Positions 43,284-47,665 of a stretch of DNA of 49,142 nt are shown here, piece by piece. The stretch comes from Actinomycetota bacterium (GTDB lineage: Bacteria > Actinomycetota > Acidimicrobiia > Acidimicrobiales > AC-35): positions 1 through 49,142 of the forward strand of contig VAXP01000047.1 of NCBI GenBank assembly GCA_005884125.1, written 5' to 3'. Below the pieces are notes generated by a model. The model was given only the letters and a program-made list of their open reading frames with translations, was not told the origin of the DNA and did no database searches. Made by a program: the position numbers and the translations under genes. Positions within the stretch are counted from its first letter, which is position 1. Each line of letters starts with the position of its first letter.

Positions 43284-44918
43284 GTGGGGCGAGCGCACAC
43301 ACAGCCGGCGGACCCTCCCGAGGGGGCCTCGACGAAGCCGGGCCCGGTCGCCTTCACGTTCATCGCAACCGCGTCGGCGGCGAAGCTGGCGGCGCGCGTC
43401 GGGGGCAGGGCCGGACGCCCCTTTGAGGTGGAACGGACCTGGCTGGACACCTTCGACTGGCGCCTGTGGAACCAGGGGCTGGCTCTCGAGGTCGACCGGG
43501 GCCCCGCCCTCAACAGCGCGACCCTGCGCTCGACGGGCGATCACCGGGTGCACTGGGTGCAGCGGGACGGCGAGGTGCCGGTGTGCGCCGAGGATCTGCC
43601 CCCGGGCCCCTGGCGGCGCTCGCTGGCCGGGGTCCTGGGCATCCGGGCCCTGGTGCCGGTGGGCTCGGAGCAGGTGCAGAAGACGGAGATCGTCTGCGCC
43701 GACGGCGAGGGCAAGACGGTGGCCACCCTGATGTGGGAGCGGGTCGGCAGCCGGCCGGACCAGGGTCAGGGTCGGGAGCGGCCGGCTCCCCGCCCGGTGG
43801 CCCGGGTCAGGCTCATCCCCGCCCGGGGCTACGACAGGACGGCGCGCGAACTGGCCGCCCTGCTCGTCGAGCACGCCGGCCTGGTTCCTGAGACCGCGCA
43901 CCCGCTCGAGCAGGCCGCGACCCACGGGCTGAGGCCGGGCCAGGACCCGGGCAAGCTCAGGCTGGTCCTCGCTCCCGGGATGCGGGCCGACGACGCCCTG
44001 CGCCACATGCTCTCGACCCTGTTCGCGGTCATGGGGGCCAACGAGCCCTGGCTGGCCAGCGCCCCCGACACCGAGTTCCTCCACGACTACCGCGTCGCCC
44101 TGCGCCGCAGCCGGTCGGTGCTCAAGCAGGCCCGGGGGATACTTCCCCAGGAGGCGCTGGACGAGTGGCGTCCGGCCCTGCGCGACCTGCAGGTGCGCAC
44201 CAACGCCCATCGCGACCTCGACGTGTTCCTCCTCGAGTTCGACGGCTACCGGGCGGCCGTGCCCCAGGTGGGCGAGGGCGACCTCGAGCCGCTGCGCAAC
44301 CTCCTCCTCCGCCACCGCCGGGTCGAGCACGCCGCCCTGATGAGCTACCTGGACAGCGAGGAGCACCGATCCCTGCTGGCCCGCTACCGCGCCTTCCTCA
44401 GCTCCCGGGCAGGCCAGGACAGGCCCGTGAGCGACGGGTCCACGCCCGACGAGACCCGGCCCGTGGATGCGGTGGCGGCCGGGCGCATACGCCGGGCCCA
44501 CCGGCGCCTGCTGCGCTCGGGAGCCGCCATCGGCGACGCCTCACCGGCCGAGGCTCTCCACGAGCTGCGCATCTCAGGCAAGGAGCTGCGCTACCTGCTC
44601 GAGCTCTACGGCTCCCTCTACGACCGGGCCGTGCTCGGAGGGGTGGTGCGCGAGCTCAAGGCCCTGCAGGACAACCTGGGCGAGTTCCAGGACTGCGAGA
44701 TACACGCCCAGCGCCTGCACGAGTACGCCTCCGAGTTGCGGGCGACGGCGGATGTCCCGACGTCGTCGCTCATGGCCGTCGCCCTGGTGGCCCAGGTCTT
44801 CATCGACCGCCAGGCCCAGGCCCGGGCCGCCTTCGCCGGGCGCTTCACCGCCTTCGCCAGTCGCCACAACGTGCGCCTCCTCGATCGCATGCTGACCAAG
44901 GGCGGAGGCCCCGGTTGA
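43284..44918 (+). CDS. CHAD-domain protein with degenerate CYTH-like N-terminus
   Basis: CHAD: HDYRVALRRSRSVLKQARGILP...RTNAHRDLDVFLLEFDGY...EALHELRISGKELRYLLELYGSLY...LKALQDNLGEFQDCEIHAQRL. N-terminus TWLDTFDWRLWNQGLALEV resembles CYTH but lacks a clear ExExK. Confidence 0.9.
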   Translation: MGRAHTQPADPPEGASTKPGPVAFTFIATASAAKLAARVGGRAGRPFEVERTWLDTFDWRLWNQGLALEVDRGPALNSATLRSTGDHRVHWVQRDGEVPVCAEDLPPGPWRRSLAGVLGIRALVPVGSEQVQKTEIVCADGEGKTVATLMWERVGSRPDQGQGRERPAPRPVARVRLIPARGYDRTARELAALLVEHAGLVPETAHPLEQAATHGLRPGQDPGKLRLVLAPGMRADDALRHMLSTLFAVMGANEPWLASAPDTEFLHDYRVALRRSRSVLKQARGILPQEALDEWRPALRDLQVRTNAHRDLDVFLLEFDGYRAAVPQVGEGDLEPLRNLLLRHRRVEHAALMSYLDSEEHRSLLARYRAFLSSRAGQDRPVSDGSTPDETRPVDAVAAGRIRRAHRRLLRSGAAIGDASPAEALHELRISGKELRYLLELYGSLYDRAVLGGVVRELKALQDNLGEFQDCEIHAQRLHEYASELRATADVPTSSLMAVALVAQVFIDRQAQARAAFAGRFTAFASRHNVRLLDRMLTKGGGPG

Positions 44919-45682
44919 AGGTGCTGGCCACCTACAGCATCAAGGGCGGGGTGGGGAAGACGTCGGCGGCCGTGAACCTGGCCGCCAGCGCGGCCCTGGC
45001 CGGTTGGAACGTGCTGGTTTGGGATCTCGACCCCCAGGGGGCGGCCACCTACCTGTTCCGCACCAAGGCCAAGGTGAAGGGGGGGTCCCGGGCCCTGGTC
45101 TCCCAGCGCCGAAGCCTCCTGGACGCGGCGGTGGCCACCAACGTGGCCAACCTCGACCTCGTGCCCGCCGACTTCCGCTACCGGCATCTGGACCTGCAGC
45201 TGCACGACACCAAGGGGTCCACCCGTGTTCTGGCCGAGCTCATCCAGCCCCTCGCCGGCAGCTACGACTGGGTCGTCCTGGACTGCGCCCCCAGCATCTC
45301 GTTGGTCACCGAAGGTGTGCTGGAGGCGGTCGACATCCTGCTCGTGCCCGTCATCCCCTCTGCCCTCTCGGTGCGCACGGTCGACCAGCTCCTGGCCTTC
45401 GTCGACGGCGCCCACCCCGACGGGCCCCAGCTGCGCCGCTTCGAGGTCGTCGTGTTCTTCTCCATGGTCGACGGGCGGCGCCGGCTCCACCGCGAGGTGC
45501 TGGCCGAGCTGCCGGAACGCCACCCCGGCCTGGTGGCCCTGGCCTCGGTGCCCATGGCCAGCATCGTGGAGCGCATGGGCGTGGAGCGGGCTCCCATCGG
45601 GTCGTTCGCCTCGGGCACCAAGGCGGCGTTGGCCTACGCCCAGCTGTGGGAGGAGTTGCAGGGGCGCTGGCCTGACCCCTGA
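44915..45682 (+). CDS. ParA/MinD-family ATPase (orphan)
   Basis: TTG start: LKVLATYSIKGGVGKTSAAVNLAASAALAGWNVLVWDLDPQGAATYLF (deviant Walker A), YDWVVLDCAPSISLVTEGVLEAVDILLVPVIPSALSVRT. Confidence 0.93.
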   Translation: MKVLATYSIKGGVGKTSAAVNLAASAALAGWNVLVWDLDPQGAATYLFRTKAKVKGGSRALVSQRRSLLDAAVATNVANLDLVPADFRYRHLDLQLHDTKGSTRVLAELIQPLAGSYDWVVLDCAPSISLVTEGVLEAVDILLVPVIPSALSVRTVDQLLAFVDGAHPDGPQLRRFEVVVFFSMVDGRRRLHREVLAELPERHPGLVALASVPMASIVERMGVERAPIGSFASGTKAALAYAQLWEELQGRWPDP

Positions 45683-45693
45683 CGGGCGCGGGT

Positions 45694-46065
45694 TCAGCGC
45701 GGAGAGAGCGCGGCTCGAAGGGCGGCCACCCGCTCGGGGAGCAGGCGGTACCAGACCCACTTGCCCCGGCGTTCGCCCTCAACCAGGCCGGCCTCGCCCA
45801 GGACCTTGAGGTGGTGGCTCACGGTGGGCTGGCTCTTGCCCAGGGGCACGACCAGCTCGCACACGCACACCTCACCGGAGGGGGCGGCGCCCAGGATGGA
45901 CAGGATCTGCAGGCGGACGGGATCGGCCAGGGCGGAGTACCCCCGGGCCAGCTCCAGGGCCCGGTCGGCGTCGAGTGGCGCGGCGAGAGAGGAGGGGCAG
46001 CAGTCCTCGCCTGCCGGCGCCGGCGCACCCCGGGGTCGCCGGACCCGCTCGGCGGCCTTCACCAT
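45694..46065 (-). CDS. arsR: ArsR family repressor
   Basis: LADPVRLQILSILGAAPSGEVCVCELVVPLGKSQPTVSHHLKVLGEAGLVEGERRGKWVWYRL; CVCEL metal-site motif; divergent from arsI. Confidence 0.92.
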   Translation of the reverse strand: MVKAAERVRRPRGAPAPAGEDCCPSSLAAPLDADRALELARGYSALADPVRLQILSILGAAPSGEVCVCELVVPLGKSQPTVSHHLKVLGEAGLVEGERRGKWVWYRLLPERVAALRAALSPR

Positions 46066-46082
46066 GTTGATCCCGCCTCACA

Positions 46083-46111
46083 TTGACAAGCCTCGATGCA
46101 TCGATGATACT
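46083..46111 (+). promoter_or_regulatory. ars promoter with operator dyad
   Basis: TTGACA (46083-46088), 17-bp spacer, GATACT (46106-46111); perfect palindrome TCGATGCATCGA (46093-46104) inside the spacer. Confidence 0.75.
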
Positions 46112-46154
46112 CAACGCATCGACCGTTGTCGATGAGAGAGCCAGGGAGGCCCAT

Positions 46155-46607
46155 GTGTCCCGCATCCAGCTCGCCCTCAACGTGAGCGACCTCGACTCCG
46201 CCATCGCCTTCTACAGCAAGCTCTTCGGCGCGGTCCCGGCCAAGGTCCGGCCCGGTTACGCGAACTTCGCGGTGGCCGACCCGCCGCTCAAGCTCGTGCT
46301 CTTCCAGGGCCAGGGCCAGCCCGGCACCCTCAACCACCTGGGGGTGGAGGTGGGCTCCACCGAGGACGTGGCCGCGGCCCACTCCCGACTGGCTGCGGGC
46401 GGCCTGGCCACGGCCGCGGAGGACGAGGTCACCTGTTGCTACGCGGTGCAGGACAAGGTGTGGGTCGACGGCCCCGACTCGGAGCCCTGGGAGATCTACA
46501 CCGTCCTGGCCGACGCCGAGATGCCCGCGGCCCAGCTGCAGTCGTCCGACCCGGGCAGCTGCGGCCCGGCCGCGTGCTGCGACGCCGGCGCGGAAGCCCC
46601 GGCCTGA
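46155..46607 (+). CDS. arsI: ArsI/CadI-family VOC protein (C-As lyase-like)
   Basis: VSRIQLALNVSDLDSAIAFYSKLFGAVPAKVRPGYANFAVADPPLKLVLFQ...LNHLGVEV...VTCCYAVQDKVWVDGPDSEPWEIYTVLADA. Confidence 0.9.
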   Translation: MSRIQLALNVSDLDSAIAFYSKLFGAVPAKVRPGYANFAVADPPLKLVLFQGQGQPGTLNHLGVEVGSTEDVAAAHSRLAAGGLATAAEDEVTCCYAVQDKVWVDGPDSEPWEIYTVLADAEMPAAQLQSSDPGSCGPAACCDAGAEAPA

Positions 46608-46611
46608 TTTC

Positions 46612-47258
46612 GTGGGCGCAGAGCCCTTGGGCCGACGGCTCCTGGCCGAGCTCCTGGGCACCGGCCTGCTCGTGGCCGCGGTCGTGGGCTCGGGCATCGC
46701 CGCGGCCCGGTTGTCGCCCGGCAACCTCGGGCTCGAGTTGCTAGAGAACGCGGCCGCCACCTCGGGTGCGCTCGTAGCGCTGATCCTGGCCCTGGCACCG
46801 GTGTCGGGCGCCCACTTCAACCCGGTGGTGACCCTGGCCGACCGGGCCTTCGGGGGCATCGCCAGCATCGACGCGGCGGCCTACGTCACGGCCCAGGTTG
46901 CGGGGGGGCTGGGCGGGTCGCTCCTGGCTCCGGCGGGCTCTGGCTGGCCGAGGTGGTGGCCACCTTCGGCCTGGTGCTGATCGTGTTGGGCGTCGTGCGT
47001 TCGGGCCGAGCTGGTTGGGCGCCCTTGGCGGTGGGCGGCTACATCGGCGGCGCCTATTTCTTCACGTCCTCGACCAGCTTCGCCAACCCGGCGGTGACCA
47101 TCGGGAGGACCGTCACGGACACCTTCGCCGGCATCAGGCCCTCCTCCGCTCCCGCCTTCGTCGCCGCCCAGCTGGGCGGCGGGGCGCTGGCCGTGGCCGC
47201 CATCCGAATCCTTTACCCGCGCGTGACCGAGGCGGTGCGGACCGAGGCTCGGGTGTGA
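46612..47258 (+). pseudogene. MIP/aquaglyceroporin-family channel, frame-disrupted
   Basis: GRRLLAELLGTGLLVAAVVGSGIAA...SGAHFNPVVTLADRAFGG...VTAQVAGGLGGSLLA in one frame; GGLWLAEVVATFGLVLIVLGVVRSG...FANPAVTIGRTVTDTFAGI in another; the linking segment is missing. Confidence 0.82.
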
Positions 47259-47665
47259 AGGCCGAGCCTGTCGTGCTCTTCCTGTGCGTCCACAACTCGG
47301 GGCGCAGCGTGGCCGCCCGCGTGCTCCTCGATCACCACGCCCGGGGTCGGGTCCGGGTGCGGTCCGCCGGCTCCGAGCCGGCCGAGACGATCAACCCGGC
47401 GGTGGCCCAGATCCTGAAGGAGCGGGGCCTCGACCCGTCCCGGGAGGTCCCCGAGGCTCTCACCGACACCCTGGCCCGGGAGGCCGACGTGATCGTCACC
47501 ATGGGATGCGGCGACGCCTGCCCGGTGTACCCGGGCAAGCGCTACGTCGACTGGGACCTCCCCGACCCCGCCGGCCAACCCGTCGAGCGGGTCAGGCCCA
47601 TCGTCGAAGACATCGACAGGCGTGTCCGGGCATTGCTGGCCGAGCTGTCGGGCGCGCCGCGCTGA
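47255..47665 (+). CDS. arsC: arsenate reductase-like low-MW phosphatase
   Basis: VVLFLCVHNSGRSVAARVLLDHHARGRVRVRSAGSEPAETINPAVAQILKERGLD...VTMGCGDACPVYPGKRYVDWDLPDPAG; GTGA overlap with aqp. Confidence 0.92.
   Translation: MKAEPVVLFLCVHNSGRSVAARVLLDHHARGRVRVRSAGSEPAETINPAVAQILKERGLDPSREVPEALTDTLAREADVIVTMGCGDACPVYPGKRYVDWDLPDPAGQPVERVRPIVEDIDRRVRALLAELSGAPR

Follow-up and report, generated by a model that had tools for sequence, protein, structure and literature searches.

A conserved, translationally coupled CHAD-ParA gene pair tied to polyphosphate and its possible role in granule positioning

What does a ParA-type ATPase do when its gene overlaps that of a CHAD-domain protein and has no parB gene beside it? 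Such an arrangement is found in a contig of an Actinomycetota bacterium of the order Acidimicrobiales (VAXP01000047.1; the whole stretch analysed, 49,142 nucleotides, is hereafter named the window). An earlier note on this DNA proposed that the two genes form a module for the positioning of polyphosphate (polyP) granules, in which ParA would distribute the granules on the nucleoid, and the CHAD protein would be the cargo adaptor, a role comparable to that of McdB. The features of the pair are collected in Table 1.

Table 1. Features of the CHAD-ParA pair in the window, and of a small ORF preceding CHAD in Paracoccus (coordinates of the respective loci).
Feature	Position	Strand	Description
CHAD protein gene	43284..44918	+	GTG start, 544 aa; presumed polyP-binding partner; Pfam PF05235 E=1.2e-50; AF2 pLDDT 88.4
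N-terminal degenerate TTM/CYTH-fold domain of CHAD protein	43347..43820	+	residues ~22-179; Foldseek; ExExK lost
CHAD domain	44010..44720	+	residues 243-479; H267, R270, R274, R310, R436, Y437 are the equivalents of the CtCHAD polyP contacts
GGAGG within the CHAD gene, probable ParA ribosome-binding site	44904..44908	+	found by eye in the sequence; 6 nt 5' of TTG
TTGA, shared by the CHAD stop and the ParA start	44915..44918	+	from the sequence; 4-bp NTGA overlap likewise in 31/41 pairs
ParA gene, deviant-Walker ATPase of the CHAD-linked subfamily	44915..45682	+	TTG start, 255 aa; AAA_31 E=5.5e-33; AF2 pLDDT 95
Small ORF before CHAD, Paracoccus	L260 4299-4487; L261 4288-4476; L263 4273-4476		

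The overlap between the CHAD stop codon and the TTG start of ParA, from which coupled expression had been deduced, is indeed present in the sequence and is preceded by a GGAGG motif. The TTG start is credible, because relatives start at the same residue as the window ParA (MKVLATYSIKGG). A 4HBT thioesterase gene lies upstream of the pair and an ArsR regulator gene downstream, on the opposite strand, and no other polyP gene adjoins the pair within the window. The statement that no ParB-like or replication gene is adjacent was also borne out, and a search allowing up to 3 mismatches found no parS-like site within the window. A canonical parAB is present on another contig (C27) of the same assembly (3.74 Mb, 183 contigs), so that the chromosomal partition genes are located elsewhere. 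The genome also contains one PPK1 and a second CHAD, both on contig C14. There, PPK1, CYTH-CHAD, NUDIX and SixA genes form a row without ParA (L248, 5740-10295, minus strand), and the CYTH domain of this second CHAD protein is still recognised by Pfam. Directly downstream of the pair, positions 45694-47665 hold a probable arsenic-resistance cluster, made of the ArsR gene (minus strand) and of genes for a glyoxalase-family protein with a Cys-rich tail, a MIP channel and a low-molecular-weight phosphatase/arsenate-reductase-like protein. The MIP channel gene (46612-47258) is split between frames 46612-46980 and 46953-47258, which overlap and both match MIP, possibly due to a frameshift or an assembly error.

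Restriction of the adjacency to this genome, which the earlier note had named as a refutation, is not observed. Among 59 genomes of the same order, 12 ParA relatives scored above 115 bits, the generic Soj group scoring ~97 bits and below, and 8 of these 12 had a CHAD homologue directly upstream, with 32-38% identity for CHAD and 47-57% for ParA. In one genome of the order (G222), the ParA has a score equal to that of a Microthrixaceae record (L075, L112), from which the window would probably belong to the Acidimicrobiia. A profile made from ten pairs (A1) was used to search 395 genomes of the class, 397 genomes of the phylum and, in addition, the GTDB contigs; among the class-level matches, all ParAs with 355 bits or more were preceded by CHAD on the same strand, and so were several more distant ones. 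Once duplicates were removed, 41 distinct pairs were obtained, with CHAD upstream, on the same strand and at most 55 bp from ParA. The 4-bp overlap (NTGA) is exact in 31 of them, and the spacing of the remainder is between -1 and 55 bp. Pairs are distributed among Acidimicrobiia, other actinobacteria, Alpha- and Gammaproteobacteria and Desulfobacterales; outside the class, they were found in Prauserella muralis, Rhodothalassium salexigens, MAGs of Thiogranum, of another gammaproteobacterium and of Desulfobacterales, and many actinobacterial MAGs. In Prauserella, Rhodothalassium and Thiogranum, the CHAD of the pair is the only one of the genome.

As to generic ParA genes, CHAD was found near none of 66 loci in a second set, where the surrounding DNA was searched, and likewise near none of those in the first set. 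The family was assembled from ParAs resembling those of the pairs, which inflates the fraction of its members that have CHAD; this bias does not account for the difference from generic ParA. Given 41 conserved pairs against no CHAD neighbour at 66 generic loci, chance pairing is excluded. These counts also bear on the view that a commonplace ParA for plasmid or chromosome partition stands beside CHAD by happenstance, which is how a 2024 paper reporting a conserved folD-ppk-parA-CHAD order in Acidithiobacillus read its ParA, taken as a plasmid partition protein (PMC10892726). The best Pfam and NCBIfam names for the window ParA are those of generic ParA, and some pairs are carried by Paracoccus plasmids. 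Yet no ParB or parS accompanies the window pair, canonical parAB genes are found elsewhere, generic ParA loci are devoid of CHAD, and the ParA of the pairs belongs to a separate subfamily; we thus consider this view very improbable and already disfavoured.

The separation of this subfamily is apparent at the residue level. Residues K10, K15, T16, D37, D39 and D123, belonging to the deviant Walker A (with its signature lysine), A' and B motifs, are invariant, and K10, K15, D37, D39 and D123 are identical in CHAD-linked and generic ParA. CHAD-linked proteins carry a signature (W36, R49, D86, R90, E133, P148, L151, T155, E219, M221, R225, W245) that is nearly absent from generic ParA. By sequence, the window ParA is nearest to nucleoid-binding Soj/ParA (E ~1e-21), and its AF2 model, compared by Foldseek, matches Soj/ParA with a TM of 0.88 and McdA with a TM of 0.87. 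Arginine R188, which presumably matches the DNA-contacting residue of Soj, occurs in 89% of the pairs, but other C-terminal positions are different from generic ParA.

On a quick tree of 98 ParA proteins, including some long branches, members of pairs and solo members of the subfamily (those without an adjacent CHAD) form one fully supported clade relative to generic ParA. The CHAD label changes 10 times on this tree, versus a mean of 31.8 when labels are shuffled. Distance matrices of CHAD and ParA are correlated (Mantel r 0.83, 0/2000 permutations as high), a value uncorrected for ancestry, to which shared species history contributes. Were CHAD and ParA merely co-expressed and acting separately, solo members would be readily accounted for: they exist in many genomes, some of which are devoid of any CHAD. 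However, gene order, strand and the 4-bp coupling are conserved from phylum to phylum and CHAD labels cluster on the tree, which makes separate action quite improbable.

The CHAD domain of the window protein scores 173 bits, for a curated cut-off of 25.6 (Pfam PF05235), and the best Foldseek match of this part is the C. tepidum CHAD-polyP complex (6qva, TMt 0.92). Residues H253, R256, R260, R296, R418 and Y419 of CtCHAD are polyP contacts in the central pore, and their mutation lowers polyP binding (PMC6537752). With numbering matched by hand on the alignment, they correspond, in this order, to the six residues listed in Table 1, which are invariant in 39 proteins.

The N-terminal part of the protein had been described as a CYTH-like region that has lost ExExK. 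No Pfam CYTH is detected in it even at E<=1, yet its AlphaFold model adopts the TTM tunnel fold, with matches to thiamine triphosphatase (Foldseek probability 1.00, E ~2e-5) and to class IV adenylate cyclases (probability 1.00). The catalytic ExExK is absent from the window protein and from 23 of the 25 full-length proteins of the set, the two proteins that keep it being sister lineages, and both parts of the description hold.

The adaptor role, as far as it was modelled on McdB, is weakened. Partners of ParA/MinD (A/D) ATPases, McdB and ParB among them, are reported to use a basic, disordered N-terminus (PMC10241942, PMC12204374). The first 25 residues of the window CHAD protein include 2 basic and 2 acidic ones, relatives are variable, with mostly 0-5 basic residues, and no conserved basic N-terminal tail was found on the CHAD partners among the pair proteins. 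Any interface with ParA must therefore differ. Basic C-termini are present in many CHAD partners; they were not distinctive enough to found a claim and were set aside.

A connection with polyP metabolism is also visible around the pairs. SixA, PPK1, CHAD, ParA and CYTH/NUDIX genes form a row on one strand in L234 and L235, two genomes that belong to a single family. In a gammaproteobacterial MAG (L106), PPK1, CHAD and ParA lie in this order, and after them come an oppositely oriented PPK2, an ATP-cone kinase-like gene and a Na/Pi cotransporter gene; at another locus (L047) CYTH, NUDIX, SixA and PPK1 are located within ~6 kb. A CYTH gene was found near the pair in 11 loci, and plasmids of Paracoccus aestuarii, P. 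marcusii and P. liaowanqingii carry CHAD-ParA-CYTH-NUDIX, a set that adjoins pstA-pstB-phoU-phoB in P. marcusii. Co-occurrence with PPK1 at the genome level was dropped as evidence: 33 of 34 pair genomes have PPK1, and its presence is uninformative because 37 of 40 genomes without this ParA carry it as well. In the three Paracoccus sets, a small ORF (~62-67 aa, hypothetical protein) overlaps the CHAD start by 4 bp, and is a possible third component (Table 1).

The 41 pairs, their conserved 4-bp coupling, the PPK1, PPK2, CYTH, NUDIX and pst-phoU neighbours and the retained polyP-contact residues lead us to conclude that CHAD and ParA very probably constitute a real, widespread and translationally coupled module tied to polyP. 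This half of the initial proposal is well supported. For the other half, we infer from the known roles of both protein families that this conserved module, on balance, probably positions polyP granules on the nucleoid. The CHAD protein would coat the granules, and the ATP-bound ParA dimer would sit on the nucleoid, from which CHAD-coated granules would locally release it. The ensuing ParA gradient would spread the granules along the nucleoid, such that polyP would be inherited by both daughter cells. The mode of working would be like that of McdAB or ParABS, with CHAD as the cargo adaptor.

Some of the same observations would suit a ParA that does not move granules at all, and acts instead as an ATP-dependent switch controlling polyP production, the assembly of granules or the activity of CHAD, much as BcsQ regulates cellulose. 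PPK1, PPK2, CYTH and NUDIX enzymes accompany the pair, BcsQ (a ParA-like ATPase that belongs to a biosynthetic complex) is among the family and fold matches, and the CHAD partner is without the typical ParA-activating N-terminus. BcsQ nevertheless ranks lower than Soj/ParA, which is nearest in both sequence and fold, and the retention of R188, at the presumed DNA-contact position, also speaks against a switch; we hold this alternative to be possible but unlikely. Information could also flow the other way, CHAD-bound polyP reporting the phosphate status to ParA, which would act on the nucleoid or on the cell cycle. The phosphate genes next to the P. marcusii pair are consistent with such a flow, as is the placement of polyP granules in Caulobacter, which follows chromosome segregation (PMC13052382). 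Against it, no cell-cycle or chromosome gene was a recurrent neighbour among the pairs examined, and the window's genome has a separate parAB, which renders it improbable.

If the pair positions granules, its mode of action may resemble that of a ParA/MinD cargo system. As in McdAB, the gene of a ParA-fold ATPase lies beside that of a presumed cargo-binding partner, without ParB, and the fold match is to McdA of Cyanothece. In contrast to McdAB, the window ParA is nearer by sequence to Soj than to McdA, the CHAD partner has no relation to McdB and does not share its basic N-terminus, and the cargo would be polyP. With ParABS (Soj-Spo0J), the pair shares the ParA fold, the ATP-site residues and a D-x-R motif near residue 188, but it has neither ParB nor parS, identity is ~30%, and W36, R49, R90, E219, R225 and W245 are distinct. 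Because the features tested on the partner protein were not those of these systems, we do not count the pair as a member of McdAB or ParABS. The CHAD fold and the polyP-contact residues are those of the CHAD phosins and of CtCHAD (PDB 6qva), from which the window protein differs by its coupling to ParA and by its degenerate N-terminal TTM domain. Finally, AlgP of Pseudomonas aeruginosa (PMC9239181) would match in purpose, the spacing of granules on the nucleoid, but it is a single histone H1-like DNA-binding protein, with no ATPase known in its system.

A 2025 review cites AlgP alone for the positioning of polyP granules and does not decide whether energy is spent on it (PMC13052382). Among open-access papers, bioRxiv preprints excluded, nothing was found that joins ParA-type ATPases with polyP granules beyond the Acidithiobacillus paper (PMC10892726). 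The cluster described there has the same gene neighbours in one genus, a likeness judged by the gene order given in that paper, and no module, breadth or positioning was proposed. Bacteria very commonly contain polyP granules, and the manner in which cells space and share these inclusions is an open question. With this pair, a defined ATPase and a defined polyP-binding partner are at hand in organisms that have been cultured (Paracoccus, Prauserella, Rhodothalassium), and the question of placement can therefore be reduced to deletion and microscopy. The pair would further offer a candidate cargo for the large set of 'orphan' ParAs that currently carry annotations as partition proteins or AAA ATPases.

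The picture of an orphan ParA paired with CHAD must be qualified, however, as members of the subfamily are often without an adjacent CHAD. Solo loci numbered 34 in the first sets, and 68 of 399 Pseudomonadota genomes were positive for the subfamily, with 24 of the best 30 lacking CHAD next to ParA. A few solo-ParA genomes have no CHAD at all, so that at least some of these ParAs act without it. In Pseudomonadota with this ParA and no CHAD within 5 kb of it by coordinates, CHAD was present elsewhere in 35 of 40 genomes, versus 16 of 40 genomes without this ParA (Fisher p 2e-5, uncorrected for relatedness). Strong CHADs of the solo-ParA Pseudomonadota are mostly stand-alone, and 10 of the 14 examined (L316-L329) adjoin PPK2. 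At these 14 loci, the stand-alone CHAD genes encode ~310-350 aa, and tandem CHAD genes are present in L325 and L327. A similar count in actinobacterial solo-ParA genomes (CHAD in 22 of 25) was dropped, being uninformative because CHAD is common.

A bolder version of the granule-positioning model, which we put forward tentatively, is that ATP-driven positioning and inheritance of polyP granules is widespread, that ParA recognises a folded adaptor made of CHAD and the degenerate TTM domain, by an interface other than the basic N-terminal tail found in ParB, MinE or McdB, and that in Gammaproteobacteria the same ParA serves an unlinked, stand-alone CHAD in trans. No shared partner gene for solo ParAs emerged among the neighbours examined, which seem to depend on the lineage, a TruA-like gene (named by eye) being one example in gammaproteobacteria. 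In Halomonas sp. PA16-9, the best plasmid ParA match, no CHAD was found within ~6-7 kb on either side. Solo ParAs of one family (f71; L089, L092, L096) have an HU-like gene within ~3 kb, whose product carries a Lys/Ala-rich tail in L092 and L096.
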